Shown in pieces: positions 4,216-31,223 of a stretch of DNA of 64,000 bases. The notes beneath the pieces were generated by a model, which did not search any database, was not told where the DNA came from, and saw only the letters and a list, made by a program, of their open reading frames with translations. Source of the DNA: Chthonomonadales bacterium (lineage in GTDB: Bacteria; Armatimonadota; Chthonomonadetes; Chthonomonadales; CAJBBX01); contig JADLGO010000013.1 of the NCBI GenBank assembly GCA_020849275.1, positions 124,001 to 188,000 on the forward strand, given 5' to 3'. A program made the position numbers and the translations under genes. How positions within the stretch are numbered: the first letter of the stretch is position 1; every line of letters begins with the position of its first letter.

Positions 4216-7200
4216 TCAGGTCAACTCGACCTTGAGCGACTGGCCCCGGCCCAGCAGGATCGGTGTGTCGAAAGCCAGCACGAGCGTCTCGCCCTCCCGT
4301 GTGGCCGTCGCTGGCGCCGTCTTGCCTCCCACCGAGGCCCGCGCCTTCTCGGCCCCCGCCGGAGCCGAGAGCGCCAGCCGCCGGATGGTGATCTCTCCCT
4401 CCTCCACCGCGATCTCGTCTTGCTGCGCGGTGCCCTGGCGCTCCTGGCGGACGCTGCCCCAGGCCCGCGGGCCACAGAAGAAGGAGCGGAAGCTCTCCGG
4501 CGTGTAGCGCGGGCCGAGCCGGAGCTCGCCGGTTGGCGAGTCATAGAGCCAGCCGGAGAGCGCGAGCAGCAGCGACCACGAGGACATCGCGCGGGCGTAG
4601 TGTCCGCCGCACTCCACCTCGTTCCACGGATTGCGCGGGATCGGGGGACGCGGGATGCCGTCGTAGCGGTCGCGCGCGCCCTTGACGATGGCGAATCCCT
4701 CGTCCACGAGGCCCTCGTAGACCATATGTGCGGCCACCTGGTACTCGATGCCCGTCCAGACCTCGTCGGAGTAGAGCATCACATGTGGGGGGCGGCCACC
4801 CTTCGGCCAGGTGCAGATGATCAGGCCCTTGTCCCTGGCGCCGGCGAACGCGCGCGGCATATGGCGCCAGTCGGTCAGGTCGGGGATCCAGTTGTAGCGG
4901 AAGATGGAACGCAGCGACGAGACCACCATCTCGCGCGGGAAGAGATGGCCCAGGCCGAGCTGGTGCGCCCACCACTGCCCGATCATCTGGTCGCTCATGC
5001 AGCCCGGGCCCACCTCGCCGGGCAGCTTCTCGTAGCCCGGCAGGTGCTGCTGAAAGTACTCGCCGTTCCAGCAGAGCTCGATCAGCCGCTTCTGGCCCTT
5101 CTCAAAGATCCCGTGGTACCGGGCGGCCGTCGCGTCGTCGCCCATGCGGCGCGCCCATTCCTCGCCTGCGCGGAGCGCGGCCAGGTAGTAGCCGCTGATG
5201 AAGGTGGTCACCCCGTGGAGCGCCTCGTCGTAGGTGTTCCACTGGTCATCCTCGAGGACGCCGTTGGGCTCGCCGCCGGAGGTGGCCGCGTCGCGCTGCG
5301 CCAGGTAATCGACGGCCCGCTTCACGCTCGGCCAGTACTCCTTCAGGAAGCCGTCGTCCGGCGCCGTGAGCGCCTCGCGGTAGGCCTTGAGGACGCAGGA
5401 GGCATGGCCGTCGGCGAACGGCTGCTCGCCCGTCGGCCGGGGGGGCGAGGGAACCTCGGTCCGGTTGTTGATGCCGCCATCGGGGCGCTGCTGGTGCTTG
5501 TAGTCGATGCGTCGCATCTCGCGCTCCAGCCCCGGGAATAGGCGCGAGAGCGTCTGCTCGTAGCCCCACACGTGGGTGCACGTCGGCTGGCAGCACCCGT
5601 TTGACCCCTCCCAGCCGTAGATGTCGCCGTTCCCGATGCGGAAGACAACGCCGGCGTGGCGGATGATGGCGGCCTGTGAGCTCAGACAGTCGGTGAGCCA
5701 GTAGGGCAGCGTCGTGTCGTAGAGCGCCTTGCGGAAGCGCTCCGTCTTCTCGCGCATGGCGCCGAGGGATCCGACGGATTCGCGCACCACGGCGCGCACG
5801 TCGGGCCAGAGCCCGGCATAGTGCGTGTCCATCTTCACTCCGGCGCGGTTGTAGTAGTTCGGGTAGCGCCAGGCGAGTAGGAAGGGCACCTCGACCGTCT
5901 GGCCGGGCTCCACCTGCACGCGCGCGGCGACGGCCCCTCCCACGGTGGTTCCGGGCGGCGTGGGCCCCGGCGCGGCGGCCTGCTCCGCGAAAGCGCCGTT
6001 CTCGGCGAACTCGCGCCAGGCCTCCCCCAGGTCAGCCACGGCCGGGCGCGCCGTCGCGCCACGCTGCAGCGCCATCAGCGCGATCTCGCCGAAGCCCGGG
6101 GCGGCCCTCGGCACGCCGGCAGGCGGCGTGTAGCGCGCGCCCACCAGCGAGCACACGGCCGCGTAGGCGCGCTGGCGGGCCCCCACGAGCACGGCTTGCT
6201 CCGGGTGGAGCACCTGCCCGAGCGCGAGCACCACGCGCCCCTTGCCGAGCGGCCTGGTGACGAGCCGCAGCCCGCCGGGGCCCACGGACTCGGAGGCGCC
6301 CGGGACGGGCTTGAGGCCGATGTAGGGCGAGGCGGTGTCGCCCGCCGCGGCGGGCCGCACGTCAGTGAAGCGCGCGGCCAGCAACTCGTCGAGCAACTCG
6401 AGCACGGCGCGGTCGCCCGCAAGATCGCCGAACTCGATCTGGTCGACGTTGATGTGCCCCCAGCCGCCCTGGCGCTCGTCCACGATCTCGATGCGAGCCG
6501 TGCGCCCACGCAGGTCGCGCACGTCCCACTGCGCCGGCAGCAGGCGCTCCTCGTCGCGCCCGGACGTGGCCCGCACCGGCCGGCCGTCCACGATCAGCCG
6601 GATCTGTGTGCCGGCCGTGGAGCCACCGCCCACGAGGAAGCGGATATGGTTGCGCTCGATGGTGAAGGGCTTGCTGACCATGCGACCGGTGGCGTCGTCG
6701 CCGCCTCGGAAGGAGTTGACCAGCCCCTTGCCGCGGAAGCCGGACACGCTCTGCTGGCCGCTCAGCGTACCCGGGGCCGGTGAGTCGCCGAAGGCCGTGC
6801 CCTCCACGCTCCAGCCGGGGTAGCCGTTCTCGAAGTCCTCGAAGAGGATGTCCTCCGGCACCTGCGCGGCGCTGGCGTCGCCGCCGTGGGCCACGTTCGC
6901 GTAGCCGCGCAGCAACGGGACGCTGCGCCCGGCGAAGAGCAGCGTGGCGCCGGCCCGCACGGCGGCGCGGGCCGCCCGAAGCGTATCGGCGGTGAGGTCC
7001 GCCGCGGGGTCCTCAAGCCAGACGACCGTGTGCGCGGCGTCCTCAAGCTGCTCTGCGGCGGGCAGACTGGAGACCTGCTCGAGGGCGAGCAGGGCCGGCC
7101 GGTCGGGATAGGAGGCGTTCAGCGAGCCGACCGGGATACTCGTGAAGAGGCGCACGGGGCGGTCGAGCGCGGCGGGCTCGCCGGGCGTTGCGTCCATCAC

Positions 7201-7926
7201 GAGGCCGCGCGCGATGCCCTCGGCGTGGGGCTCGTTGCGGTTGCCGCCGAAGTTGGGGTGGCGATCCCCCTGGATATCGCCGAAGGCGTCGTAGCCCACG
7301 GGGTTCTGGAGGAACGCGGCCAGGGAGACCGCCTGCCGGCGGGCGGTGGGGTTGTGCACCTGGAAGGCAAAGACCGCGACCGGCATCGACGAGAGCCGCT
7401 CGTCGAGCGGCGCGAACGGGGAGAAGGCGGTCATCGACAGGTTCACGGGCAGGTCGGCGTCGGCGAATCGGAGGGTGGCGAGTGGGTACTCGCCGGTCAT
7501 CTCGATGCCGAGCACGCGCGGTGCGTCCGGCCCTCCGGCCGTCTGGAGTATCTTCGCCGTGTCGCCGACACGCACACCGAAGAAGCATGGCACCTCCCCG
7601 TCGCGCAGCGTGTTGAAGAGCTGCCATGTGGTGAGGCGGCCATCCGCGCCGATCTCGATGTTGCCCGTTCCAATCCCGCCGAGGTGCATCCGGGCGTCGG
7701 TGTGCAGGTCGGAGCGGTAGCGGCGCGGCGGCGCGGGCCTGTGCAGGTCGGCCTTCCACCGGGCCAGGCCCTCGGCGGGCGCCTGAGCGGCCACCCAGTC
7801 CGCCCAGGAGGGCGCGCCCAGCATCGCGCCGGCCGTGCCCGTTCCGACGAGCGTGATGAAGTGGCGGCGGCTCACGCCGTCTGGCTTCGGGGCGCATCCT
7901 CCGGCGCAATCGCAATCGCGGGGCAT
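4216..7926 (-). CDS. GH116-family beta-glycosidase (GBA2-like) with Tat signal and inserted sandwich domain
   Basis: A 1236-aa enzyme of the GBA2/GH116 family (retaining beta-glucosidase, beta-xylosidase or related). The start at 7926 has GGAGGTGA seven bases upstream. Residues 19-40 form a twin-arginine signal (SRRHF then a Gly/Ala-rich hydrophobic stretch), so it is exported folded. The N-terminal beta-sandwich has GGIGTGNIEIG near residue 84 as in GBA2_N. The (alpha/alpha)6 catalytic domain has GWEGSNGCCQPTCTHVWGYE at about 771-790 and the acid/base region NTYDEALHG near 897. Residues about 365-500 are an extra beta-sandwich (FENGYPGW to INVDQIEF) not present in the archetypal enzyme. It is the last gene of the LacI-led unit, 129 bases after its neighbour. 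Confidence 0.93.
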   Translation of the reverse strand: MPRDCDCAGGCAPKPDGVSRRHFITLVGTGTAGAMLGAPSWADWVAAQAPAEGLARWKADLHRPAPPRRYRSDLHTDARMHLGGIGTGNIEIGADGRLTTWQLFNTLRDGEVPCFFGVRVGDTAKILQTAGGPDAPRVLGIEMTGEYPLATLRFADADLPVNLSMTAFSPFAPLDERLSSMPVAVFAFQVHNPTARRQAVSLAAFLQNPVGYDAFGDIQGDRHPNFGGNRNEPHAEGIARGLVMDATPGEPAALDRPVRLFTSIPVGSLNASYPDRPALLALEQVSSLPAAEQLEDAAHTVVWLEDPAADLTADTLRAARAAVRAGATLLFAGRSVPLLRGYANVAHGGDASAAQVPEDILFEDFENGYPGWSVEGTAFGDSPAPGTLSGQQSVSGFRGKGLVNSFRGGDDATGRMVSKPFTIERNHIRFLVGGGSTAGTQIRLIVDGRPVRATSGRDEERLLPAQWDVRDLRGRTARIEIVDERQGGWGHINVDQIEFGDLAGDRAVLELLDELLAARFTDVRPAAAGDTASPYIGLKPVPGASESVGPGGLRLVTRPLGKGRVVLALGQVLHPEQAVLVGARQRAYAAVCSLVGARYTPPAGVPRAAPGFGEIALMALQRGATARPAVADLGEAWREFAENGAFAEQAAAPGPTPPGTTVGGAVAARVQVEPGQTVEVPFLLAWRYPNYYNRAGVKMDTHYAGLWPDVRAVVRESVGSLGAMREKTERFRKALYDTTLPYWLTDCLSSQAAIIRHAGVVFRIGNGDIYGWEGSNGCCQPTCTHVWGYEQTLSRLFPGLEREMRRIDYKHQQRPDGGINNRTEVPSPPRPTGEQPFADGHASCVLKAYREALTAPDDGFLKEYWPSVKRAVDYLAQRDAATSGGEPNGVLEDDQWNTYDEALHGVTTFISGYYLAALRAGEEWARRMGDDATAARYHGIFEKGQKRLIELCWNGEYFQQHLPGYEKLPGEVGPGCMSDQMIGQWWAHQLGLGHLFPREMVVSSLRSIFRYNWIPDLTDWRHMPRAFAGARDKGLIICTWPKGGRPPHVMLYSDEVWTGIEYQVAAHMVYEGLVDEGFAIVKGARDRYDGIPRPPIPRNPWNEVECGGHYARAMSSWSLLLALSGWLYDSPTGELRLGPRYTPESFRSFFCGPRAWGSVRQERQGTAQQDEIAVEEGEITIRRLALSAPAGAEKARASVGGKTAPATATREGETLVLAFDTPILLGRGQSLKVELT

Positions 7927-8055
7927 CGGGTCACCTCCGGGGCGGGGTACGGATCGCATCCGAGTTCGGCGGCCATGCGCGCTCATCCTGCCGCCGAGCG
8001 CGACGGCAGAGCGCGCGGCAAGCGCCGACCGGCGTGCTCGCCCTGGCCTGCCCGG

Positions 8056-10203
8056 CTACACCCCCCGGTCGGCCGGCCCGATGGCCACGCTCAGCACGCA
8101 CGCGCGGTGCGCGCCCAGGCCGACGGCCGCCCGCCCGCCCTGGAGCGACAACAGGCTGGGTGCGCCGATCGCGGTCGGCTGGAGGCACGCGATGTCGCGT
8201 GCCCCGCCCAGCTCACCGTGCACGCGGAACTGCGAGTTCCCCGTCACACCGGTCTCCAGGTTCGCCAGCAGGACGCCGAGCTCGCCGGAGGGGTAGCGCC
8301 AGAAGAGGAAGCAGACCGGCTTCTGCCAGTCGCGGTTGCGCCAGGTCAATCGCTCTGGCCCCCATCCGCCGGCTCCGAGCGCCATCGCCAGTGCGTGGTA
8401 GGTCTGCGGGCTCTGTATAGACTGGCAGGTCAGGTGGAGCTCGCCGGGCGTGCCCCACTCCGGCGTCTCCCACATCCAGCATGGCAGCGCTGCGTGGCGA
8501 GCGAGCACGGGGCCGCCCAGGCAGTCGATCAGCGGCTCGAAGGCGCCGCCGGGCGCCAGGGAGCGCGCGCGCTGGTTCAGGACCACGCCGGTCGTGCCGG
8601 CCGCGCGAGCTAGATCCGGTGCCAGTGTCGCCGGCGAGGGGAACGCCGCCGTCCGCGGTTCGTGCAGCGCCCGCAGGCCCAGGCGCTCGCGAAGTGCGGG
8701 GTCTACGGCGGAGGCCTGGCCCATCAGCAGCACGGGTCGGCCGGCCTCGAGCTCGCCGAGCAGGCGCTCGCTGGCGCCCGTTGGTAGCGTGGACGCCAGC
8801 GCGAAAAGGTAGCCGTCCGCGCGCACACCCGGCAGCCACTCTCCGCGCGTGATGGAGAGCACCGGCACGCCATACTTGAGCAGCATGGCGGCCCAGTCGT
8901 CCATCTCCTCGCCGCAGCTCCATTCGGCGGGCGCGCCCAGCGACGCCTCCAGCCCTTCGCGGTGGTACACCAGACAGGGGCCTCCCGGCGTAGGCTCCCG
9001 GCGCAGGTCCTCCGCGCAGGCGTCCAGCGTTCCGCGCAGGAAGGCTACCGTGTCGGCGGGCAGCAACTCGTCGCGCCGGTTCATCCACGACATGTAGAAG
9101 CCGGCCGACCGTGCGACCGCCGCGTCGGGCCCCAGTACGGCGGCATGGCTGTAGGCCCAGACCTCCCAGCTCACCTTGCCGGGGTACTGATGCACGCTGT
9201 CCCAGGGCTCCCAGGCGTCGAAGGTCTCGATCAGGAAGAGGTGACGGCAGGGTGTACGCGCCAGCATCGCCTGCTGCACGAGCGCGTTGGCAAGCTGGAA
9301 CGTGAATCCCATCGAGTGCGCGGGCCAGTAGTCGCCCCAGGCCGAGGCCCAGGTCTGTGTGATCCACAGGTCGAGCGAGCCCGCGCCGGCCACGCGCTCC
9401 AGGTCGAAGCCGTGGGAGCGCCACTCCTCCATCGCCGAGGTGCCGGAACTGTAGCCGATGGTCACCATCCTCGGTAGGTTGCGCTTGATGCGCGCCAGCA
9501 TCGCGATGAGCGCATCGTTCCAGGCGTCGCGCGACTCGGGGGCCATGTAGCGGCCCCGGGTGTGGCCTCGCACGTAGGCCGGCGAGAAGATGTGGTCGCG
9601 TAGCACCAAGGCGCCGAACCCGACGTACCGGCTCAGGTCGCACAGCTTGTCGGCGAAGTAGTCTCCCAGCGTCGGAAGAGCCTGCGTGCAGATCGTCTCG
9701 TCGGGCGGCACGCGCACCGGGGCGCCGAAGTAGAACACGTCGAAGCGCGGGTCGCGGACCTCCGGGTGCTCCGGGAACCATCGTCCCTCGATGTCGTAGC
9801 GCGCCCGCTCGTGGGCCTCCTCGGTCCTGCCGGCCCAACCCTCGCAGGCGGTCTCCGGGTACGACTGCGTGGCAGTGCCGATCAGCGGCAGCGCCACGTG
9901 GAAGCTGCCGATGCCGCGCCGTTCCGCCTCACGCCGGATCGCCGCGACGAGCCCGGCCAGACGCCCGTAGGTCCAGGGCTCGTAGGTGGGCGCCTGGCAG
10001 CAGGGGATCACGTCGTTGGGGCGGCCGTTCCAGCAGAGCACCGCGTCGAACAGCCACCCCACGCACAGCGATAGTCCCTTGCGCGCGCGTGGCTCCCGTT
10101 GCCAGAGCGGCTCCAAACGATCGAACAGGGCCGTCACCCTCTGGTCGACCGGCGCGCCCTGGAACCAGTAGAGGTCCATCTCCAGCCAGCACTCGTGGTT
10201 CAA
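8056..10203 (-). CDS. 715-aa protein of unrecognised family, glycosidase-like
   Basis: I do not recognise this family. The TTG at 10203 has GGAGG nine bases upstream, and the stop of the GH35/42-like gene is only 39 bases before it, so it is co-translated in the LacI-led unit. There is no signal peptide. The first 450 residues are rich in Trp, Tyr and Asp with segments such as GRPNDVIPCC, DVFYFGAPVRVPP, VLRDHIFSP and LFLIETFDAWEPW, spaced like the strands of a TIM barrel; the ends of these strands carry Asp and Glu that could be catalytic. Residues 480-600 resemble the Rossmann-like trimer domain that follows the barrel in GH42 enzymes, and the C-terminus (FLFWRYPSGELGVLLANLE) looks like a beta-sandwich. 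A divergent clan GH-A glycosidase is my best guess. Confidence 0.83.
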   Translation of the reverse strand: MNHECWLEMDLYWFQGAPVDQRVTALFDRLEPLWQREPRARKGLSLCVGWLFDAVLCWNGRPNDVIPCCQAPTYEPWTYGRLAGLVAAIRREAERRGIGSFHVALPLIGTATQSYPETACEGWAGRTEEAHERARYDIEGRWFPEHPEVRDPRFDVFYFGAPVRVPPDETICTQALPTLGDYFADKLCDLSRYVGFGALVLRDHIFSPAYVRGHTRGRYMAPESRDAWNDALIAMLARIKRNLPRMVTIGYSSGTSAMEEWRSHGFDLERVAGAGSLDLWITQTWASAWGDYWPAHSMGFTFQLANALVQQAMLARTPCRHLFLIETFDAWEPWDSVHQYPGKVSWEVWAYSHAAVLGPDAAVARSAGFYMSWMNRRDELLPADTVAFLRGTLDACAEDLRREPTPGGPCLVYHREGLEASLGAPAEWSCGEEMDDWAAMLLKYGVPVLSITRGEWLPGVRADGYLFALASTLPTGASERLLGELEAGRPVLLMGQASAVDPALRERLGLRALHEPRTAAFPSPATLAPDLARAAGTTGVVLNQRARSLAPGGAFEPLIDCLGGPVLARHAALPCWMWETPEWGTPGELHLTCQSIQSPQTYHALAMALGAGGWGPERLTWRNRDWQKPVCFLFWRYPSGELGVLLANLETGVTGNSQFRVHGELGGARDIACLQPTAIGAPSLLSLQGGRAAVGLGAHRACVLSVAIGPADRGV

Positions 10204-10242
10204 CGCCCGACACCTCCGTACCGCGCTCTCGCCGCCCGGCCC

Positions 10243-11913
10243 TCACGGGTCCGGCCGGTACTTCACCCGGATGACCGCCGGCTCCCGCACCTCGAAGACG
10301 ACCAGCGAGCCAACGCGCTGCACGGCGAACGGCCGCTCGGCCACCCACCGATCTGCCTCGAACCGGCCCTCCTCGGCCTGAACCGCGCCGACAGGGCCGA
10401 GCGTAACGCGGCCCCCGGGCACCGCGAGCACCAGCTCGCGAGGGCCGCGCCGAACCACGATGCCGGCCGCCGAGCCGCTCACCCCCACCGTCAGCTCCCC
10501 GAGCGATGCGGTCAACTCGTCCGACTCCACGGCGCGCGTCTGCTTGCCCTCGCGCACGAACGTGCGAGCCCTCGCAACCACCCTGTCCGACTTCCTCAGG
10601 GGCACGAAGTTGCCGAACACGTCGGTCGTCACCTCGGCGGCGACCTCACGCAGCACGTACCATGCGAGGAGGTTCCCGGTGCCGCGCGCCCGAGCGATCG
10701 GGACCTGCGCGTGCTTGATCGGGTAGAGCGCTGCGGCGTAGCGGCGCCTGGCGTCCGGGTCGTCGACCACGGTGTGCGGCGCGTGAGACTCCCACAGCAG
10801 GCTACCCAGACCCGGCCGCCCCACCACGGTGTAGTACGGCAGGACGTCCAGGTTCATGCGCACCTCGGGGTTCTCGGTGGGGTTCTCGGCTGCGAAAGGC
10901 ACGTTGCGCCCGACCTGCGAGAGGGAGAGCATGTTGGGCTCTCGCGGCGTGAGGACGCCATCGATGCCGACCAGGTCCAGGTTCGGACACCGATCGAGGA
11001 AATAGGGAATGATGTGCGGAGGCCACCACGGGCTGTTCACGTACATGGGCAGGCGGTAGATGGCGGCGATGGAGTCGGTCAGCACTCTCACGTAGTCCGC
11101 GAAGCTTCGAAACATGAACTCCTCGCCGCTGGCGTAGCCGCCGCTCGCCCACCGGGCCTCACAGTACGGGCAGTGGCATCGCACGGCCTTCTCCTCCGCG
11201 CTGCCACTGGCCGGTCGCTCGCCGTCCCACTGCTGATAGTAGAACTCGTTGTCGATCTGGAGCATGATGACGGTGCGGTGGGTGTCCGTGTCGCGCAGGT
11301 GCTCGGCAACGCGCGCCACCAGTCGGCGCTCGCGCTCCAGGGTGTCGGGGTCATTCGGGCACATAGGCGGGCCGCCGGACACGTAGCGCCACGCGCTCGG
11401 CAGCACCATGCGCGTGTACGTCGCCGGGTCCGAGAGGATGTAGGCTGGCGTGTAGGCGGGGTAGGCCGAGGAGCCGGAGGTTTCCTCCACCTTGCCGCAG
11501 ACGTTCGTGTTGAACAGGTTGACGACCAGCCTGAGCCCGCGGGCCCGGGCCTGTCGGACGAACCAGTCGAGGAATCGGAAGTCGTAGGCGTCCTTCGCCG
11601 GCTCGATCATCGACCAGGGAATGCCGACCGAGACGGCGGTCGCGTTCATCTGGCGGAAGCCGTCGAAGAAGGCGACGGTCTTCTCATCCTGGCGAGTGCT
11701 GCGCCATATGTCGCACTGCGCGCCCAAGAGGAGGAAGGGGTGGCCGTCCACGACGAGCGTGGCGATGCCGTTCATCCTCGCGATGCGGGCGTGCGGCGGC
11801 CGGGTTGCCATGCGTGAAGCCTCCGTCGGGGCGGGATGGGCGGCGGCGCCCGCCGGTATGCAGGCGCTCAGCAGCGCGATTGCGAACCGGGCGTGGCTAC
11901 GGTCGCCGGGCAT
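10243..11913 (-). CDS. Clan GH-A beta-galactosidase-like enzyme (GH35/GH42-like)
   Basis: A 556-aa secreted retaining glycosidase. The ATG at 11913 lies inside the end of the upstream gene (17-base overlap) with GAGGA nine bases before it; translation is probably coupled. A short signal peptide spans residues 8-25. The TIM barrel opens with TLVVDGHPFLLLGAQCDIW, a GH35-style start; the acid/base Glu is about E223 in QIDNEFYY and the nucleophile about E343 in FAAENPTEN. A Cys cluster CHCPYC at 247-251 may bind zinc as in GH42 enzymes. A small C-terminal beta domain follows. The family assignment between GH35, GH42 and a relative is uncertain; the catalytic class is much more certain. Confidence 0.87.
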   Translation of the reverse strand: MPGDRSHARFAIALLSACIPAGAAAHPAPTEASRMATRPPHARIARMNGIATLVVDGHPFLLLGAQCDIWRSTRQDEKTVAFFDGFRQMNATAVSVGIPWSMIEPAKDAYDFRFLDWFVRQARARGLRLVVNLFNTNVCGKVEETSGSSAYPAYTPAYILSDPATYTRMVLPSAWRYVSGGPPMCPNDPDTLERERRLVARVAEHLRDTDTHRTVIMLQIDNEFYYQQWDGERPASGSAEEKAVRCHCPYCEARWASGGYASGEEFMFRSFADYVRVLTDSIAAIYRLPMYVNSPWWPPHIIPYFLDRCPNLDLVGIDGVLTPREPNMLSLSQVGRNVPFAAENPTENPEVRMNLDVLPYYTVVGRPGLGSLLWESHAPHTVVDDPDARRRYAAALYPIKHAQVPIARARGTGNLLAWYVLREVAAEVTTDVFGNFVPLRKSDRVVARARTFVREGKQTRAVESDELTASLGELTVGVSGSAAGIVVRRGPRELVLAVPGGRVTLGPVGAVQAEEGRFEADRWVAERPFAVQRVGSLVVFEVREPAVIRVKYRPDP

Positions 11914-14230
11914 TGAGCAGTATCCTCGACCGGACGCTGAGCGCAACGATCGCCTCCCCGCGATCGGCGGCGCGCGCGAGCGTCTTCGGCCCCTCGGCGA
12001 GCACGAACGCCGCTCCGCGCAGGCGCCAGGTTCGGCACACCCAGTTGCCGCCCGACTGCCACACGGCGCATAGCTCGTCGGCGCCATCCAGGTCGGCATC
12101 CAGCGCCGTGAAGGCCAGGCCATGCGCGCCGGCGGGCAGACCCGGCAGCCGCGTCGTGACGGTGCGGCCGTCCATCCGTACGCTGGCCGAGGTGCCGGCC
12201 GCGGAGCGTGTCAGGACGGCCAGGCGGTCCGGCTGCCGCGTGCCGTCCGCGTAGAGGACCGGGGCCGCGCGGAGACCGACGATGCCCGCGAAGGCGTCGG
12301 CGCGAAGCGGCGCGACGCCGACGAACGGGCGCAGCGTCGCGCCGCACTCCGCGTCGTCGAGAGGCGCGAAGCCGATCGCGCCGGGCTGGCCGGAGACGCG
12401 GCGGTATACCCGCAGGCTCACGGCGCCGTCGGCCCGACGGCGCGCTACCACGATCTCGTCGGGATCGCCCGCCCCCACGGCCCGCGGCACCAGGTTGGCC
12501 GTCGTCAGCCCGGCGAATCGAGCACCGTCCACGCGGGCCGCTAGCGAGTGGTCGTCGGCCACCCGATCGCCGTAGGCGGCAAGCACCGAGGCGTGACCGT
12601 CGTTCCGCACGGCGAGCAACTCATCGACCCCGTCGCCGTCCACCTCGATGCGCTGCGCGCACGCCAGCGGCCGGGCGAGCAGGTAGTCCGGCAGGCGCGA
12701 GGCGTTCAGCCTGCGCCAGCGTGGGCCCGTCGAGTGGAACCGCAGGCAAGCGACGGCGCGCCGCGGCCCATAGGGCGGCCGCGGCAGCACGGCCAGCGTG
12801 CTGCTGGCGAACATCCGGGGCGGGCTGGCGGCGTCGTTCTCGTGGAAGCGCTGCTGGTCGCGGTCAAAGAGCGCGTCAAGCCGGTCGGGCGGCACGTCCG
12901 GGCCGTCGGGGGCCAGCAGCAGGTTCCGGAGATACCGGAGCGCCGGGCGCTCGGCGAGCTCGCCCTCGGGACGGGCAGGTCCGGACATCCAGGGGTAGGG
13001 GGGTGCCTCCGCAAAGAAGTACCAGCTCGGCTCGAACTGGAGCACGGACGCGCCTTCGCGCAGACCCTTGCGCACGTAGGCGCCGAGCACCTCCGGAGGG
13101 CAGGCCATCTCGCCGAGCGGGAAGTAGCGGCCGTTGACGGTGTTGGTCAGCTCGTGCCAGAACCAGCTCTGAATCGACATGCCCCAGCGGGCGCGCGGAC
13201 GGCCCCTCAGCGGGAACCGCCGATAGGGCATGTCGAAGAGCAGCCACGACGGCACGGGACGAGCCACGCCTGGACGGCTGGCGCGGATCTTCGCGCCTAT
13301 GAACTCCAGGTTCGGCGTGAAGTGGTAATTGTTGTTGGCCCACGCAAAGCACACACGCTCGCCGAGTCGCGCTTCCGCGTAGTGCTGCAGTGAGCGGTAG
13401 GGCTCGGCCTCGACGTACGGCCGGTGTCGCGCACTGTAGACGTAGGACGGCTCGCCCGTGGTGGGGGGCGACTTCATGAGCCAGCAGGAGTCGCTCCACA
13501 GCAGGCGCATGCCGGTGCGCCGGCAAAGGTCCACGCATCCGCGCACCACTTGCTCGTCCAGCGCGAAGCCGCGCACGGCGTCTGGCGGCGACACCCTGAA
13601 GACGATGTCCGAGCCGTAGACCTCGTGGAAGCGGATTCCGTCGAGCACATCGGGGTAGGCAGCCCTCAGCGCCGCCAGGGCCCTCAGGTCCATCGAGAGG
13701 CCGGGGCGCCCGCGGTCGGTCGGCCCGCCGGTGAGCGATGGCCGGGGGCGGCGGGCCAACTCGCCGCTCTGCTGCGTGGCGACTCCGGAGGAATACGCCT
13801 CCAGGTAGACGCCGACCCGCCCCTGCGCTCGGCGGGCGCGAAGGAAGGCCAGGGCGTGCCGCAGCGCCGGGTGGACGCGCTCGATGGGAGAGGCGCCGTC
13901 CGTGCTCCGGCCCTGCGGCTCGTACATGAACGTTGGGTAGATGAGGACGCCGACCTCGTAGCGTCGCGTCAGCGGGGCGAGGGCGCGATGTATGCTCGTC
14001 AGCCGGCGATCCAGGGCGGGCAGATCGTTCGCATGGCGCGCGAGCAGGCTCGTGGCGAAGCCCTCGTCGATCTCGAACAGAAGGAGCGGCCGGGCCGGAC
14101 CCATCGGGGCCCGGCCGGCCAGTCCGGGCGAGGCGATGGTCGGGAGTCCGAGCATCGACAGCGCGCCCAGAACGAGCGTCCGGCGCAGGAGGCGGGCGGC
14201 GGGGCAGCCCGCCTCTCCTGCGCGTCTCAC
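11897..14230 (-). CDS. Secreted GH98-like protein with C-terminal VCBS/FG-GAP-type repeats
   Basis: A 777-aa protein with a signal peptide (arginine-rich start, hydrophobic residues about 16-38). The GTG at 14230 overlaps the stop of the small membrane protein in a GTGA junction, so it is translated by coupling. The first 470 residues look like a TIM-barrel glycosidase: LLLFEIDEGFATS, VGVYLEAYSSG, DGIRFHEVYGSDIVFRV, MRLLWSDSCW and SVLQFEPSWYFF, the Glu and Asp at strand ends resembling GH98 proteins. The C-terminal 300 residues contain integrin-like blades with Asp-rich loops (VDGDGVDELLAV, LDADLDGADELCAVW) expected to bind calcium and form a beta-propeller. Substrate unknown; blood-group-like or other endo-galactosyl targets are only a family-based guess. 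Confidence 0.83.
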   Translation of the reverse strand: MRRAGEAGCPAARLLRRTLVLGALSMLGLPTIASPGLAGRAPMGPARPLLLFEIDEGFATSLLARHANDLPALDRRLTSIHRALAPLTRRYEVGVLIYPTFMYEPQGRSTDGASPIERVHPALRHALAFLRARRAQGRVGVYLEAYSSGVATQQSGELARRPRPSLTGGPTDRGRPGLSMDLRALAALRAAYPDVLDGIRFHEVYGSDIVFRVSPPDAVRGFALDEQVVRGCVDLCRRTGMRLLWSDSCWLMKSPPTTGEPSYVYSARHRPYVEAEPYRSLQHYAEARLGERVCFAWANNNYHFTPNLEFIGAKIRASRPGVARPVPSWLLFDMPYRRFPLRGRPRARWGMSIQSWFWHELTNTVNGRYFPLGEMACPPEVLGAYVRKGLREGASVLQFEPSWYFFAEAPPYPWMSGPARPEGELAERPALRYLRNLLLAPDGPDVPPDRLDALFDRDQQRFHENDAASPPRMFASSTLAVLPRPPYGPRRAVACLRFHSTGPRWRRLNASRLPDYLLARPLACAQRIEVDGDGVDELLAVRNDGHASVLAAYGDRVADDHSLAARVDGARFAGLTTANLVPRAVGAGDPDEIVVARRRADGAVSLRVYRRVSGQPGAIGFAPLDDAECGATLRPFVGVAPLRADAFAGIVGLRAAPVLYADGTRQPDRLAVLTRSAAGTSASVRMDGRTVTTRLPGLPAGAHGLAFTALDADLDGADELCAVWQSGGNWVCRTWRLRGAAFVLAEGPKTLARAADRGEAIVALSVRSRILLNARRP

Positions 14231-16487: not shown

Positions 16488-16700
16488 GCGCCTCTTCGCG
16501 GTCCCCTCCTCGCGGCCGTCCGAGTCGCACGGTCCGTCGGGTAGGGCAGGGGCGGGTCGGCCCACCGCGCCGTCACGGCGAACCGTGGCGGAGCACGCGC
16601 CGCGAGGGTGCTATGGGCCCCTGCCGAGCCTAGGAGGGCGCCCTGCCGGCGTCGAACGCGCAGATGCGCGGCGCGCGAGCCGCGCGGAGGGAGGCCCCGC

Positions 16701-18098
16701 ATGCTGTTCGTCGGACTGGTCGCGTGCGCCGTGCTCGCCGTCGGCGCGGCCGCCCGCCCGCCCGTTGCCCTGCACCCCGGCAACCCGCGCTACTTCCTGT
16801 TTCGCGGTCGCCCGACCGTGCTGATCACCTCCGGGGAGCACTACGGGGCGGTGCTCAACCGCGACTTCGACTACGTACGGTATCTGGACACGCTGAAGGC
16901 CGCGGGCTACAACCTGACGCGCACCTTCGCCGGCTCCTATGTAGAGGTGCCCGGCGCCTTCGCCATCGCCGGCAACACGCTCTCGCCGGCGGACGGGCGC
17001 TTCGTCTGTCCCTGGGCGCGTTCCGAGACACCCGGCTACGCGCGTGGCGGGGCCCGGTTCGACCTCTGGCGCTGGGATCCGGCCTACTTCGCCCGCCTCA
17101 CCGACTTCTGCCTGCAGGCCGGCCGCCGCGGCATCGTGGTCGAGATCGTGCCGTTCTGCCCGTTCTACGACGAGGGGCTCTGGCGCGTGAGCCCGATGAA
17201 CGCCGGCAACAACGTCAATGGCATCGGCGCAGTCCCGCGCGAGGAGGCGCTCACGCTGCAGCACTCCGACCTCGTGGAGGTACAGGAGCGGCTGCTGCGC
17301 AAGCTCTCGGAGGCGCTCGCGGGCTTCGACAACGTCTACTTCGAGGTGTGTAACGAGCCCTACGTCTGTGGTGTTCCGGAGGACTGGCAGGACCACATGG
17401 CCGCCGTGCTTGCCGAGGCAGAGCGCGCGCGGCCACGGCCGCACCTGATCGCGCGCAACTGGGCGAACGGCTCCGCGCTGATCGACCGGCCGCGGCCGCA
17501 CATCTCGATTCACAACTTCCACTACGCCTGGCCGCCCCGGGCGGTGGAGGAGAACGCCGCCCTGCGCCAGCCGATCGCGTTCGACGAAACGGGCTTTCGC
17601 GGTACGGCGGACCTCCCCTACCGCTCGGAGGCATGGGCGTTCCTGATGGCCGGGGGCGCGGTCTACAGCAACCTGGACTATTCGTTCACCGTGGGCCACG
17701 AGGACGGCAGCTTCGTGCCGCCTTCCACCCAGCCCGGCGGCGGCGGGCCCTCGCTGCGCGCCGGACTGAGCGCGCTGAAGCGCTTCGTCGAGCGCCTCGA
17801 CATCCTGAGGATGGCCCCGGTCCCGCCGCGCTCCGTGCCGGGCGCGGTGAGCGTCTGGGCCCTATCGGACCGCGAGCGCGCCTGGGCTCTCTACGCGCTC
17901 GGACGCGGCGAGGGCGCGATCGTGCTGGCCCTGCCGGCCGGGAGCTATGCGGTGGAGTGGGTCGACCCGTCGACGGGCGCCTTCGTTGAGACGGCGAGGC
18001 TGCGGCACCCGGGCGGCGAGGCGCGGTTGACTCCGCCCCCATATGCCGAGGACATCGCCGCGCACATCCGGCGCCAGGGAGGAAGCCCCGGCCGCTGA
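16701..18098 (+). CDS. Secreted clan GH-A glycoside hydrolase (GH5-like)
   Basis: A 465-aa secreted enzyme; residues 1-19 are a signal peptide ending in GAAARP. The ATG at 16701 has GGAGG upstream; earlier in-frame GTG starts lack this. TIM-barrel features run from YFLFRGRPTVLITSGEHYG through NLTRTFAG, with the acid/base Glu at about residue 219 (FEVCNEPY) and the nucleophile Glu at about 296 (IAFDETGF), followed by a C-terminal beta domain. The order NEP then DETGF fits cellulase-like or DUF4038/DUF6298-type enzymes rather than a specific GH5 subfamily. It is transcribed away from the LacI gene; 213 bases without another gene separate them (16488-16700). Substrate not predictable. Confidence 0.88.
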   Translation: MLFVGLVACAVLAVGAAARPPVALHPGNPRYFLFRGRPTVLITSGEHYGAVLNRDFDYVRYLDTLKAAGYNLTRTFAGSYVEVPGAFAIAGNTLSPADGRFVCPWARSETPGYARGGARFDLWRWDPAYFARLTDFCLQAGRRGIVVEIVPFCPFYDEGLWRVSPMNAGNNVNGIGAVPREEALTLQHSDLVEVQERLLRKLSEALAGFDNVYFEVCNEPYVCGVPEDWQDHMAAVLAEAERARPRPHLIARNWANGSALIDRPRPHISIHNFHYAWPPRAVEENAALRQPIAFDETGFRGTADLPYRSEAWAFLMAGGAVYSNLDYSFTVGHEDGSFVPPSTQPGGGGPSLRAGLSALKRFVERLDILRMAPVPPRSVPGAVSVWALSDRERAWALYALGRGEGAIVLALPAGSYAVEWVDPSTGAFVETARLRHPGGEARLTPPPYAEDIAAHIRRQGGSPGR

Positions 18099-26285: not shown

Positions 26286-26311
26286 CCTTCTTCTTCAGGC
26301 GCGCGTGCTCG

Positions 26312-27037
26312 CTACACCATGAGCGCCTGGCGCTCCGGTGTGCTGGCGAGCCCGATGTGTGCCGCGGTGTGCAGCGCGAACCAGTGCTCCGCGGCCGGTG
26401 GCCGCGGCGCAATGACCTGCATTGCGAGCGTGGCGATTCTCCTTTCGGTCTCCATGCGGTCCGCCCAGTCCTCCTCCTCCACGATGCGGCCCAGGTAGTT
26501 CTCCAGCAGACGCCCATCGCGGTCCGCGGCGCCGGCGCGCAGCGGATAGCCGTCCATGCGGACCGCGCTGAAGAGCACGCCGGCCCCGGCCCCCTGCCGG
26601 CGCCAGTTGCGCTCGACGTGCCGGGCCAGCCGCTCCGGAAGGCTCGTGGAGCCGTCTCGCGCGCCGTGCACCAGATGGACCAGATGTCCGTCCCCGCGGG
26701 CCGCCAGGTGGTGGATGGCGCCGAGCGACCACGCCATCGTCTGGCGCGGCGGCGCGAGACCCACCGTCTGCAGGACGATGTCCAGCCGTCCCAGGAGCTT
26801 CTCGGAGCGCGCGAGGGCCGCTCGCGCTTCGGCGAGCGTGCCGACTGGCAACTCGGTCAGCGAGGCGTCGCGGCGGAACTGGTAGAGGAGCGCGCGGATC
26901 GCCGCGTCGACGGAGGCGCCGGGCCCGGTGATGGCGATGCGCGCTCCGGCGTTCGCCAGGTGCCGCGCAAGCGCCACCGCCGAGCGGCTTGCGGGGCAGG
27001 TCAGCAATACTCCCTTTCCAGACATCGTAGCGTCCAT
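26312..27037 (-). CDS. SDR-like Rossmann protein, degenerate
   Basis: A 241-aa protein that looks like a short-chain dehydrogenase/reductase that has lost parts of the active site. GKGVLLTCPASRSAVALARHLANAGARIAITG replaces the usual TGxxxGxG nucleotide-binding turn (no Gly-rich loop), and no Tyr-x3-Lys catalytic pair is apparent; LLGRLDIVLQTVGLAPP corresponds to the NNAG region. It may still bind a nucleotide or be a structural relative. The ATG at 27037 follows GGGAG by seven bases. It is divergent from the GH76 gene. Confidence 0.72.
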   Translation of the reverse strand: MDATMSGKGVLLTCPASRSAVALARHLANAGARIAITGPGASVDAAIRALLYQFRRDASLTELPVGTLAEARAALARSEKLLGRLDIVLQTVGLAPPRQTMAWSLGAIHHLAARGDGHLVHLVHGARDGSTSLPERLARHVERNWRRQGAGAGVLFSAVRMDGYPLRAGAADRDGRLLENYLGRIVEEEDWADRMETERRIATLAMQVIAPRPPAAEHWFALHTAAHIGLASTPERQALMV

Positions 27038-27161
27038 CGTGGGCTCCCATAGAGTGCGGATGCCTGGCAAGACGAGGCCGCGCCCCCGGATGTTCCTGAT
27101 GGCGAATCGGACCTCCCGGGGGCAGGGAGGCTACCCCGAACGAACGCGTCGCGCGGGCGCA

Positions 27162-27191
27162 TTGACGGCCGGAGCGGCGCCCCGGTACCAT
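27162..27191 (+). promoter_or_regulatory. Promoter placed for a leaderless GH76 transcript
   Basis: TTGACG (27162-27167) and TACCAT (27186-27191) are 18 bases apart. Transcription should start about 7 bases downstream, at the ATG at 27198. The ATG has no properly spaced ribosome binding site (GAGGG ends one base before it), which agrees with a leaderless message. Confidence 0.5.
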
Positions 27192-27197
27192 GAGGGC

Positions 27198-28307
27198 ATG
27201 GTGACCATCGCCTGTGTGCTCGCTCTCGCGCTGCCGGCCCTGGTCGGGGTCTCCCCGGGCGCCGCGCGTGCCGACCAGCGCTGCGCCGAGTGGGGCCGGG
27301 AGACGCTCGAGCAGATCCGCTCCGACCTCTACATGCCGGAGCGCGGACTGTATGCCGAGGAGGCCGCGCTCTCCGGCGACAGACCGCGCCAACCGGCGTT
27401 CATGTGGGGCTGTGGCGTACAGCTTGCCGCGCTAGCCGCGGCGGCGCGCCTCGACCGCGCCTACCGCGAGCCGCTGCGCGGCTATGCCGAGGCCCTCCAG
27501 AGCTACTGGTCGGAGGCGCGCGGGATCGGCGGCTACGACGTGTTGCCGGTGCCCAAGCCCTCGGACCGCTACTACGACGACAACGCCTGGGTCGTGCTCG
27601 CGATGCTCGATGCCCGCGAGGCCACGGGCGAGGAGCGCTACCGGGAGCTCGCCGAGCGTGCGATGGCGTTCGTGCTGAGCGGTGAGGACGAGCGACTGGG
27701 CGGCGGCATCTGGTGGCGCGAGGAGGAGCGTCGCTCCAAGAACACCTGCTCCAGCGCGCCGGCCATCGTCGGAGCGCTGCGGCTCTTCCGGCTCACCGGC
27801 AAGCGCCGATACCGCGACGCGGCCGATCGTCTCCACCGCTGGACGAAGGCGCATCTGCAGGACACGGATGGGCTCTATTTCGACAACGTGCGGCTCGACG
27901 GCACCGTGGAGCCCACCAAGTGGTCGTACAACACGGCGGTCATGATCGACGCGGAGTGCATGCTCTACGCGATCACCCGGGAGCGCCGCTACCGCGACGA
28001 GGCCCTCCGCGTGGCGCGCGCCGCCCGCGCGCGCTGGGTGCGTGAGACGGGCGCCGTGGCGGACGAAGGGCGCTTCGCGCGCCTCCTACTGGAGGCGCTG
28101 CTGGACGTTGACGCGCTGGATCGGCGCGGTGGGTGGCGCGCGACCGTGCAGCGGTGCCTGGCCCATCTGCACACCGAGGTCCGCGACGCGCGCGGCCGCT
28201 ACGGCGGCCGGTGGGACCGGACCGCCGGCGAGCCAGTGCAGCGTTTCTCTCTGCTTGACCAGGCCAGCGCCGCGCGCGCCTACTGGGCCGCCGCGAAGGC
28301 GCCCTGA
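27198..28307 (+). CDS. GH76-family alpha-1,6-mannanase-like enzyme
   Basis: A 369-aa secreted (alpha/alpha)6-barrel protein; residues 1-25 are a signal peptide ending ARADQ. The Asp-Asp pair that gives GH76 enzymes their nucleophile and acid is present at about residues 127-128 (RYYDDNAWVVLAMLD). Repeated helix pairs such as TGEERYRELAERAMAF, TGKRRYRDAADRLHRW and RERRYRDEALRVARAA are typical of the fold. GH76 enzymes cut alpha-1,6-linked mannan such as the fungal wall backbone or, in related proteins, act on GPI-like or mycobacterial mannans. It stands alone between an SDR-like gene and the NfeD operon. Confidence 0.88.
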   Translation: MVTIACVLALALPALVGVSPGAARADQRCAEWGRETLEQIRSDLYMPERGLYAEEAALSGDRPRQPAFMWGCGVQLAALAAAARLDRAYREPLRGYAEALQSYWSEARGIGGYDVLPVPKPSDRYYDDNAWVVLAMLDAREATGEERYRELAERAMAFVLSGEDERLGGGIWWREEERRSKNTCSSAPAIVGALRLFRLTGKRRYRDAADRLHRWTKAHLQDTDGLYFDNVRLDGTVEPTKWSYNTAVMIDAECMLYAITRERRYRDEALRVARAARARWVRETGAVADEGRFARLLLEALLDVDALDRRGGWRATVQRCLAHLHTEVRDARGRYGGRWDRTAGEPVQRFSLLDQASAARAYWAAAKAP

Positions 28308-28423: not shown

Positions 28424-29782
28424 ATGCTTCGGAGAGGCGGACGATGGCGACCGGCGGCGGCCGCCGCGATCGCGCTGTTCGTCTGCGCGGGGGCCGCGGT
28501 GGCGAAACGCGATCGCGCCGCGCCGGTGGTGGTGGCCGACATGCGGATGGCCATCACGCCGCCCGCGCGCGACTACTTCGCCCGCGCGATGGCGCGCGCC
28601 GAGGCCGAGGGAGCCGCCTGCCTGCTGATCGAGATGGACACGCCCGGCGGCGACACCGAGTCGATGCGCAAGATCGCGAGCGCCATCCTGGGCTCGCCGA
28701 TCCCCGTCGTGGTGTGGGTGTCGCCGGCCGGAGCGCGCGCGGCCTCGGCCGGGGCGGTGATCGCGCTGGCGGCCAACGTACTCGCGATGGCGCCCGGAAC
28801 CAACATCGGCGCGGCGCACCCGGTTACCGGGGGTGGGGGCGACATCCCGGGCGACATGCGCGGGAAGGTTGTCAACGACATGGCGGCCTTCGCCCGCGCG
28901 GTCGCCGCGCGGCGCGAGCGCAGCGCGCAGTGGGCCGAGGCCATCGTGCGCAAAAGCGTGGCGAGCACCGACGAGGAGGCGCTGCGTCTCGGCGTGGCCG
29001 ATCTGGTGGCCGGCTCGCGGCGTGAGCTCTTGCGCGCGCTCGACGGGCGCACGGTGCGGACAGCGCGCGGCGAGGTAGTGCTGCACACAGCCTCGGCGCC
29101 GGTGGAGGAGATGCCGCTCTCCCCCATCGAGTCACTTCTGCTGGTGCTCTTCACCCCGAACGCCGCGCTGATCCTCGGCGCGGTGGCCTTCTACGGCATT
29201 GTCGCGGAGGTCCAGAACCCCGGCGCGATCGTGCCCGGCGTGGCGGGCAGCATCGCCCTCGTGCTCAGCCTGTACTCGCTCTCCGTGCTTTCGGTGAACG
29301 CAACCGGCGTCGCGCTGTTGCTGCTGGCGGGCGTGCTGTTCGTGGTCGACGTCTACGCCCCGACGCACGGCGTACTGACGGTTGGGGGCGTTGCGGCCTT
29401 CGTGTTCGGCGCAATGATGCTGTTTCGCGACACGGGTACGGGCATGCAGGTATCGCTGGGTGTGGTGCTGGGCCTGGCGCTCACCACGGCGGCGTTTTCG
29501 GTGTTCGTGGTCGGCAGCGCCTGGCGCTCGCGCCTTAGCCCGCCCGGGAGCGGGCCCGAGACCCTGATCGGGGCGACCGCCGAGGCCCGTACCGACGTGG
29601 CGACCTCCGGCAAGGTGTTCGCGGCCGGGGCGTTCTGGAGCGCGGTCAACGTCGGCGCCGACCCCATCGTGGCCGGCGACGCCGTCCTGGTGGAAGGGCG
29701 CACCGGGCTGACGCTGCGGGTTCGGCGCGCCGCGCCGGCGGCGGCGGGCCCCGTGTATGAGCGGCCGGAGAGGCCGGCATAG
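28424..29782 (+). CDS. nfeD: NfeD-type membrane serine protease
   Basis: A 452-aa protein of the long NfeD (NfeD1b) class. A signal peptide (1-27) leads to a ClpP-like protease domain with the catalytic Ser at about 108 (RAASAGAVIALAA) and Lys at about 177 (AIVRKSVASTDEEA), then four to five transmembrane helices, then a C-terminal OB-fold domain (GATAEARTDVATSGKVF). Such proteases cleave a hydrophobic segment of the slipin encoded by the next gene and are thought to control membrane-domain quality. The ATG at 28424 follows GGAAG. CTGACG and CGTCAG at 28337-28342 and 28361-28366 form an inverted repeat upstream. Confidence 0.93.
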   Translation: MLRRGGRWRPAAAAAIALFVCAGAAVAKRDRAAPVVVADMRMAITPPARDYFARAMARAEAEGAACLLIEMDTPGGDTESMRKIASAILGSPIPVVVWVSPAGARAASAGAVIALAANVLAMAPGTNIGAAHPVTGGGGDIPGDMRGKVVNDMAAFARAVAARRERSAQWAEAIVRKSVASTDEEALRLGVADLVAGSRRELLRALDGRTVRTARGEVVLHTASAPVEEMPLSPIESLLLVLFTPNAALILGAVAFYGIVAEVQNPGAIVPGVAGSIALVLSLYSLSVLSVNATGVALLLLAGVLFVVDVYAPTHGVLTVGGVAAFVFGAMMLFRDTGTGMQVSLGVVLGLALTTAAFSVFVVGSAWRSRLSPPGSGPETLIGATAEARTDVATSGKVFAAGAFWSAVNVGADPIVAGDAVLVEGRTGLTLRVRRAAPAAAGPVYERPERPA

Positions 29783-29839
29783 CGGGGAGGGTGCCCCGTT
29801 CGCGTCCGGGCCAATCGGGGGTACGAAGGGAGCGGGTCC

Positions 29840-30643
29840 GTGGAGATCCTGCGGCAGTTGTTCGACTTTCTGGGGCCGGCGGTCGTGGTTGTGATCGTCG
29901 TGGCCATACTGGTTCTGCCGGCGCTCGTACGCATCCTGCCAGACTGGGAGCGAGCGGTGATCCTGCGTCTGGGCAAGTTCAGCCGCGTCGCCGGGCCCGG
30001 CATCATCTTTCTGGTGCCCTACGTGGAGCGCGCCCTGCGTGTGGACACGCGCATCGTGACGATGGACGTGCCACGTCAGGAGATGATGACTCGCGACAAC
30101 GTGCCCGTTACGGTGGATGCCATCGTCCTGTTCCGGGTGATCGATCCGCGCTTCGCCATCCTCAACATCGAGAACTACATCCGCACCACCTCGCTGATCG
30201 CGCAGACCACGCTGCGCAGCACGATCGGGCAGGTGGAGTTGGACGAGCTGCTCGCACAGCGCGACCAGGTGAACCAGCGGCTCCAGACCGTGATCGACGA
30301 GCAGACCGAGCCGTTCGGCGTCAAGGTGACCACGGTGGAGGTGCGCGACGTCTCGCTGCCCGACACGATGAAGCGTGCGATGGCGGCCCAGGCGGAGAGC
30401 GAGCGCGAGCGGCGCGCCAAGATCATCAACGCCGAGGGCGAGTTCCAGGCCGCCGAGAAACTGGCGCAGGCCGCGGCGCTCATCTCGCGGGAGCCGGCCG
30501 CGCTTCAGCTCCGCTTCCTCCAGAGCGTGCGCGAAATCGCCTCGGAGCGATCGTCGATCACGATTCTGCCGCTCCCCATGGACATCATCAAGCCGTTCCT
30601 GAGCCTGGCGGAGCGCGCGGCGCTCGACACGAAGCACGAGTAG
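29840..30643 (+). CDS. Slipin (SPFH/band 7 membrane scaffold protein)
   Basis: A 267-aa member of the bacterial stomatin/slipin family. An N-terminal membrane helix (residues 12-33) is followed by the SPFH domain (WERAVILRLGKFSRVAGPGIIFLVP, then TMDVPRQEMMTRDNVPVTVDA) and a C-terminal coiled-coil rich in Ala, Glu and Arg (MAAQAESERERRAKIINAEG). Slipins assemble into ring-like or raft-like scaffolds in the inner membrane. The gene follows nfeD by 57 bases, the classical nfeD-slipin pair, and abuts a zinc-ribbon membrane protein gene. Confidence 0.95.
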   Translation: MEILRQLFDFLGPAVVVVIVVAILVLPALVRILPDWERAVILRLGKFSRVAGPGIIFLVPYVERALRVDTRIVTMDVPRQEMMTRDNVPVTVDAIVLFRVIDPRFAILNIENYIRTTSLIAQTTLRSTIGQVELDELLAQRDQVNQRLQTVIDEQTEPFGVKVTTVEVRDVSLPDTMKRAMAAQAESERERRAKIINAEGEFQAAEKLAQAAALISREPAALQLRFLQSVREIASERSSITILPLPMDIIKPFLSLAERAALDTKHE

Positions 30644-31180
30644 ATGCGCTGCCCAAGCTGCGGTACCGCCAACACCGAGGGCGCGGCCGTGTGCGCCAAC
30701 TGCGCCGTGCCGCTCACCGCCTACGCGGGGAACGAGTCCGGCGGCCTGAGCGTCGAAACCCTGGCCCGCCTGCGGCGAGTCGTCGCGCGGCCGCGAGTCG
30801 TGGGCGCGATGGCGGCCGCCGACCTGCTGGCCGCGCTCATCGGGCCGCTGCGCTCGGCCGTGGCCGGATTTCGGGCGCAGCCGAAGCTGGCCGAGGACGC
30901 CACGAACTACCTGGGCACGGCTTTCGGGGCGGTGAGCGCGGTGTTGAACGCGGCGATGACGCTGCCGATCGCCCTGGCGCTTGGCGTGCTGGCCTGGGGC
31001 GCGTGGACCCAGCGCTCCTGGGCGTGGCCGGCAAATCTTGCCGTGCTGGGGCTCTCGGCGATCCTGGCGCTGATCGCCCTTCCCGTCAGCCCCTTCGTCG
31101 CCCTGATTCGCCTCGGCGTGACCGGGGCGCTCGCGTACTTCTGGACCCGCGGCGAGGCGAGGGAGTGGTTCGGGGCCTGA
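30644..31180 (+). CDS. Zinc-ribbon membrane protein attached to the NfeD-slipin operon
   Basis: A 178-aa protein whose ATG directly follows the slipin TAG. Residues 3-20 are a zinc ribbon with two Cys pairs (CPSCGTANTEGAAVCANC). A linker leads to a C-terminal half with about three hydrophobic helices (VLNAAMTLPIALALGVLAWG, then LAVLGLSAILALIALPVS). No enzyme motifs are visible. Direct joining to slipin suggests it works on the same membrane platform, but I know of no established function. Confidence 0.8.
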   Translation: MRCPSCGTANTEGAAVCANCAVPLTAYAGNESGGLSVETLARLRRVVARPRVVGAMAAADLLAALIGPLRSAVAGFRAQPKLAEDATNYLGTAFGAVSAVLNAAMTLPIALALGVLAWGAWTQRSWAWPANLAVLGLSAILALIALPVSPFVALIRLGVTGALAYFWTRGEAREWFGA

Positions 31181-31223
31181 GTGGCGGCCGTCAGGCGGCG
31201 CCGCGCGCCCGAAAGGAGACAGT

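Follow-up and report, generated by a model that had tools for sequence, protein, structure and literature searches.

The locus and its gene content

The window, the whole 64,000-nucleotide stretch of DNA that was analyzed, carries at 8056..10203 on the minus strand a single ORF with a TTG start, which encodes a 715-aa protein of an unnamed family (the target). A ribosome-binding site, GGAGGTG, can be read from the sequence at 10211..10217 (minus), 7 bases ahead of the TTG, and this start is backed by two relatives that start at the same place, L012 with TTG and L013 with ATG. The gene is single-copy in its 4.8-Mb, 73-contig source assembly, where it lies at G000:C13:132059-134203. It is a real gene with full-length homologues in other genomes: two, at 68% and 63% identity, come from other genomes of the same phylum, which the named relatives Chthonomonas and Fimbriimonas suggest to be the Armatimonadota, and further homologues in Cohnella, a Bacillota MAG and Sumerlaeota share 55-58% identity with the target.

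A first, sequence-only reading of this DNA had placed the gene in a glycan operon with exported neighbours, and the Pfam matches and translations agree with it. Downstream, 69 bases from the target, a GH116 gene (PF04685 and PF12215) occupies 4216..7986 (minus); its translation begins with a Tat-like signal. Upstream, 39 bases away, lies a gene for a GH42/GH35-like barrel enzyme at 10243..12123 (minus; PF02449, E 3.1e-08), and then, at 11897..14230 (minus), a gene for a 777-aa protein that matches neither Pfam nor NCBIfam. Both of these products have hydrophobic N-terminal stretches when read from their translations. Proteins similar to the 777-aa protein adjoin the L012 and L013 relatives of the target, and these two copies are 47% identical to each other. 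A LacI regulator, a GH2 gene and two proteins without Pfam match also lie near the target.

Elsewhere in the window, we noticed a protein of 496 aa at 16608-18098 (plus) that is barrel-like and contains an NE motif (DNVYFEVCNEPY), and two ORFs, putative genes, of 365 aa at 26295-27392 (minus) and 813 aa at 29132-31573 (minus), none of the three with a Pfam or NCBIfam match.

Searches of sequence libraries and the literature

We compared the target with Pfam, NCBIfam and the PDB sequences and obtained zero matches up to E 10, in keeping with its earlier description as an unrecognised protein. The same was asked of 42 family members, namely the target and 41 relatives, and zero relevant family matches were found in Pfam (2025) or NCBIfam (June 2026). 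NCBIfam returned signal-sequence and chance-level matches only. The sole strong Pfam match was an F5/8 type C domain, which occurs as an insert in 2 of the 42 members, exported homologues of genomes G032 and G033; these two members, at L010:8546-11320 and L011:8882-11659, combine a Tat-like signal with the inserted domain. A Melibiase_C match was considered as evidence for the nature of the C-terminal part and was rejected as too weak: its best E is 0.0036, and it is present in 5 of the 42 members, the target not among them. When the 42-row family profile was searched against the PDB sequences, the best match was a membrane protein at E 0.32, and no link to solved structures emerged. The sensitive profile search that the sequence-only reading had suggested as a check turned up no characterised family as a strong match in Pfam, NCBIfam or the PDB sequences. 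Among viral contigs, 20 pattern matches were obtained and 0 were confirmed as relatives, and a plasmid search with the target and with a Flavobacterium member as queries found zero relatives.

Some CAZy families have no Pfam model, and the family could already be named in CAZy while missing from Pfam and NCBIfam. We consider this unlikely: the 42 members lack relevant matches in both libraries, the profile search of the PDB reached E 0.32 at best, and a literature text search found no description of the family. These results make the target family a candidate new family, as judged against Pfam, NCBIfam and the PDB sequences.

Predicted fold and domain order

The AlphaFold model of the target (pLDDT 90.1, pTM 0.93) is divided into three parts. 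Residues 1 to about 405 (8989..10203, minus) form a (beta/alpha)8 barrel, seen in the model and in structural matches, with strands at residues 4-10, 41-47, 101-108, 198-202, 247-251, 279-282, 320-326 and 368-372. Residues about 406-560 (8524..8988, minus) form an alpha/beta domain at the place of the GH42/GH164 trimerisation domain, as judged from the model and from full-length matches to GH42 and GH164. In the model, residues about 561-715 (8056..8523, minus, with the stop) make up a C-terminal helical and beta-rich part. Thus the predicted fold does contain a barrel, and the model, Foldseek and VIA all reproduce the GH42-like order of barrel, trimerisation domain and C-terminal beta domain that had been suspected from the sequence.

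The best 20 Foldseek rows for the target were three-domain glycosidases of the GH42, GH151 or GH35-like type. First was 3tts (GH42, E 6.7e-17), followed by 6tvk (GH151, E 8.1e-16) and then by GH42 and GH35-like enzymes. In VIA, the full-length matches were GH164 (Z 16.5, rmsd 5.7, 544 aligned), GH42 (Z about 15-16, 517-547 aligned; for 6y2k, Z 16.4, rmsd 5.4, 525 aligned) and GH151 (6tvk, Z 14.0, rmsd 5.6, 536 aligned). The highest barrel Z, 17.2, belonged to Cwp19 of Clostridium difficile (PDB 5oq3; rmsd 4.2, 300 aligned, 14% identity), but this match is confined to the barrel, and a sequence relation to Cwp19 was undetected in the PDB profile search. Further barrel matches, at Z about 14, were beta-amylase, PgaB, chitinase B and GH156. 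GH139, the subject of PMC12282258, has a different fold from the target. Taken together, the barrel fold and the family of the target are well supported.

Distribution of the family

Within the phylum, 5 of 291 genomes contain a match to the target at an E value of 0.001 or below. A single scan across 84,980 species genomes yielded 46 loci, at 25-68% identity, from about ten phyla: Armatimonadota, Bacillota (Cohnella), Sumerlaeota, Chloroflexota, Actinomycetota, Bacteroidota (Flavobacterium), Acidobacteriota, Pseudomonadota (Roseateles, Pelomonas), Verrucomicrobiota and Planctomycetota. The scan returns only loci with ETFDAWE or [ED][CR]WLE[IM]DL and misses members without both, so that 46 is an undercount. 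Many of the 46 loci adjoin genes of glycan degradation or sugar transport. The candidate family is therefore spread over some ten bacterial phyla, including named strains of Flavobacterium, Cohnella, Roseateles and Phytohabitans, and the annotation libraries that we tried leave it unnamed.

We aligned the target with 41 of the 46 loci (alignment A2), leaving out five partial ones (L036, L049, L051, L052 and L054). The median pairwise identity in A2 is 36%, and the lowest identity to the target is 27%. In the tree, the target groups with seven proteins of Armatimonadota, Sumerlaeota and Bacillota (support 100/100), none of which has an N-terminal extension. A second short clade consists of Chloroflexota and one actinobacterium. 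In the third and largest clade, the N-terminus of most members is signal-like or Tat-like and 27-67 residues long, by a crude hydrophobicity count that calls L030, L033 and L053 cytoplasmic though their N-termini look signal-like by eye, and that gives no verdict for L022, L024 and L044 because of their uncertain starts. Because such signals occur in most of the largest clade and in none of the target's clade, location is a clade trait. The target itself has only 5 residues before its first barrel motif and no N-terminal signal. Its proposed cytoplasmic location beside exported neighbours accordingly holds for this protein, but not for the family as a whole.

Conserved residues of the barrel

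We next looked for invariant residues in A2. All 42 rows carry E8, D10, R202, D203, D278, Q283, E326, D329 and E332, and the family signature, which the target matches throughout, reads WxExDxxWF on strand 1, RD on strand 4, QTW on strand 6 and ETxDxWExWD on strand 7. Because the scan selected on two of these motifs, we assessed the conservation of each in rows that the other had retrieved. The strand-1 acids E8 and D10 (WLEMD; 10174..10182, minus) are present in 18 of 18 rows not picked by the strand-1 motif, and the acids E326, D329 and E332 of the strand-7 motif ETFDAWE (9208..9228, minus) in 7 of 7 rows without that motif. Strand 4 ends in R202-D203 (9595..9600, minus; 42/42 rows), which replaces the usual Asn-Glu, and D203 directly follows strand 198-202 in the model. 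Strand 6 ends in Q283 (9355..9357, minus; 42/42 rows). These data confirm two features read earlier from the sequence, Asp or Glu residues at strand ends and the want of a clear NE pair; NE is absent anywhere in the target.

Several strand-end residues, polar or acidic, do not vary across the 42 rows, which come from many phyla. A catalyst would show such invariance, and it argues, as do the degradative neighbours, against a non-hydrolase on the same scaffold, be it a binding protein, transglycosidase, phosphorylase or lyase. A beta-1,2-glucosyltransferase, 7vkz, does match the target over its full length in VIA (Z 14.9, rmsd 5.3, 549 aligned), and yet we regard a non-hydrolase as improbable.

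Comparison with known glycosidase families

E326 on strand 7 and D203 on strand 4 correspond, in position only, to the catalytic positions of clan GH-A, with D203 standing after Arg and not Asn. In the comparison with clan GH-A that the sequence-only reading had recommended, the three-domain folds of GH42 and GH164 are the closest at full length. Membership of the clan in its usual form is unsupported because strand 4 has Arg-Asp in place of Asn-Glu.

The GH42 beta-galactosidase 3tts (PF02449) resembles the target in its three domains and in a Glu at the end of strand 7, at 11% identity, and differs in having Asn-Glu on strand 4. We rejected the target as a GH42 enzyme: PF02449 was found in 0 of 42 members, hhalign against 13 GH42 rows gave 0.1%, and Arg-Asp occurs in 42/42. 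Those 13 rows (alignment A4) were kept from 23 fetched loci, 10 having been dropped, and Q-x-D-N-E is invariant in them. The GH164 beta-mannosidase Bs164 (PDB 6t6g) has three domains, including a trimerisation domain, at 9% identity. Its catalytic residues are Glu-160 and Glu-297 (PMC7105311), and Glu-160 lies on strand 4, where the target has Asp. The target was rejected as GH164 as well, since it has Asp, not Glu, on strand 4 and the 42-row profile matches zero GH164 chains up to E 10. The GH151 alpha-L-fucosidase 6tvk (PF14871) also has the three-domain architecture, with an Asp at the end of strand 4 that corresponds to D203 in position only; its acid/base Glu is on strand 6, whereas the target has Gln there and a Glu on strand 7. 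No PF14871 (GHL6) match was found in the target or in the 42 members and the profile relation was 3.6%, so GH151 was rejected too. The active-site pattern of the target family thus departs from those of GH42, GH164 and GH151 despite a common architecture.

A sister family with a different strand-6 residue

A weak profile match in genome G288 (E 9.6e-4) led to a 757-aa protein, the first-found member of a sister family; the first profile also gave weak matches in G216 and G256 (E 0.003-0.004). The sister family is present in 30 of the 291 genomes of the phylum (loci L089-L118, for example L090:1489-3507 and L103), and no match was found in Pfam (1 member searched), NCBIfam (4 members) or the PDB sequences. 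Alignment A5 holds 21 of these 30 loci; the 9 that were dropped are partial or mispicked frames and L091. A comparison of A5 with A2 by hhalign gave 99.2%, E 9.6e-20 over 612 columns, which indicates that the two families are clearly related, the homology extending over nearly the full length. The model of the sister family (pLDDT 79.7) shows a barrel and further domains, with 6tvk as the top Foldseek match; its first 89 residues are of very low confidence and are missing from most relatives.

The two families have in common the strand-1 acid (D10, as E in the sister family), the strand-4 Asp, an Asp before strand 6 and, following strand 7, D329, E332, W334 and D335. Asp is found on strand 4 in 21 of 21 sister rows. 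At the end of strand 6, the sister family has Glu (20/21; the first-found member, with Cys, is the exception), in contrast to the Gln of the target, and at the position of E326 it has Asn, Gly, Ser or Ala, with an acid in 0 of 21. Trp replaces E8. The nucleophile of GH151 is D154 at the end of strand 4 and the acid/base is E235 at the end of strand 6 (PMC10154630). The strand-4 Asp and strand-6 Glu of the sister family therefore make up the GH151 arrangement, an alternative to the pattern of the target family.

We also asked how close the sister family is to GH151 itself. Profile comparison gave 75% (E 2.5e-05), and the GH42 control gave 48% (E 1.8e-04). Because the former is only slightly above the control, homology with GH151 is not claimed. 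One PF14871 protein of the phylum, L132, resembles GH151 (E 2.8e-162 to 6tvk), and in two genomes (G272:C471 and G270:C48) a PF14871 gene and a sister-family gene lie no more than about 3 kb apart. In alignment A6, 12 of 30 rows were left out. With its GH42/GH151-type architecture, strand-4 Asp and strand-6 Glu, the sister family is another candidate glycosidase family.

Proposed function and catalytic residues

The gene, its family, the domain order, the conserved residues, the homology with the sister family and the glycan context were all computed directly. We think it probable that the target is a glycosidase of an unnamed family. The sequence-only reading had named it a candidate new glycoside hydrolase family, and it retains that standing as an unrecognised family with a barrel, a GH42-type domain order, no NE pair and a place in a glycan operon. 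It would be an intracellular, exo-acting glycoside hydrolase with its active site in the (beta/alpha)8 barrel, and its GH42-type second domain probably forms a trimer. Counting against this reading are the zero sequence matches to any characterised enzyme, the barrel-only VIA matches, which include enzymes of other mechanisms (Cwp19, GH14, GH153 and GH156), and the weakness of the homology tie to GH151.

The reaction may be a retaining one. D203, at the end of strand 4, would be its nucleophile, in line with GH151 and with the homologous sister family. The acid/base would be E326, at the end of strand 7, standing in for the Glu that the sister family and GH151 have on strand 6. D203 is favoured as the nucleophile because of the homology to the sister family. 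If the target is a glycosidase, we give this assignment somewhat less than an even chance, and the reversed roles, as in clan GH-A, a smaller one.

In the reversed scheme, the target would be a clan GH-A-like retaining enzyme with E326 as nucleophile and D203 as an unusual Asp acid/base. The catalytic positions of GH-A are on strands 4 and 7, as with Glu-160 and Glu-297 of GH164 (PMC7105311), the nearest full-length folds (GH42 and GH164) belong to GH-A, and Q283 leaves strand 6 without an acid. But the Asn-Glu of GH42 is replaced by Arg-Asp in every row of A2, the profile comparison with GH42 finds nothing, and, because the sister family lacks a strand-7 acid, the scheme needs a change of nucleophile between related families. 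Taken over all possibilities, we hold it to be rather unlikely.

The enzyme could also be inverting, or acids of strand 1 and the loops (E8, D10, D329 and E332) could act with D203. These four are as conserved as D203 and E326, at 42/42, and could be catalytic; D10 (as E), D203, D329 and E332 are common to the sister family and E326 is not, and the inverting folds GH14 and GH156 are among the barrel matches. Against this, the best three-domain folds are retaining (GH42 and GH164, and probably GH151), and we judge the explanation improbable.

The target and sister families might be a related pair of unnamed glycosidase families that keep the strand-4 Asp but differ in the place of the second catalytic acid, which would have moved from strand 6, its place in the sister family and GH151, to strand 7 in the target family, where strand 6 retains a Gln. 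We put this forward tentatively, as having well under an even chance. If true, the shift would be a natural migration of a catalytic residue round one barrel, possibly bridging GH151-type and clan GH-A-type active sites, and the family pair, if confirmed, would make the relocation of a catalytic acid in a conserved barrel testable.

Genomic context of the family

The likely substrates of the target are small glycosides or oligosaccharides, freed by the other operon enzymes and then imported, from which it would remove a terminal sugar. We analyzed the neighbours of the other family members with an operon rule (same strand, gaps of at most 250 bases, longest-ORF picking) that is crude in high-GC DNA and leaves some ORFs doubtful, for example in L017. 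There were 89 same-strand neighbours at 30 of 41 loci, among them GH28 (9), GH42 (4), GH35 (3), GH92 (2), GH2 (2) and PfkB (4); these are raw counts without a control, taken from the 25 commonest of 102 families, and three Flavobacterium loci account for most of the GH28.

In Flavobacterium aquidurense (L033), the order is SusC, a GH63/MGH1-like gene, the family member, GH28, GH88, a gene for a 703-aa protein and GH28, and a SusD-like 488-aa gene was recognized by eye. The 703-aa protein (L033:13000-15111) has a weak kojibiose hydrolase match (E 3.7e-10; 38.8 bits, where the cut-off is 800), with counterparts of the same size and start in L050 and L030. A 511-aa protein without Pfam match (L033:4733-6268) likewise recurs with the same size and start in L050. 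GH35 adjoins the family member in Cohnella (L014), where an ABC binding protein and permeases were seen by eye, and two GH92 genes lie beside it in Acidobacteria (L043). The context of the family points to plant-type glycans, with no single substrate prominent.

In Anaerolineae L056, genes for an RbsB-type binding protein, a SIS-domain protein and a PfkB kinase precede the family member. An operon conserved among L055, L056 and L021 runs from a regulator with a sugar-binding domain through an RbsB-type ABC transporter, SIS and PfkB to the family member, and its content hints at an amino- or keto-sugar pathway.
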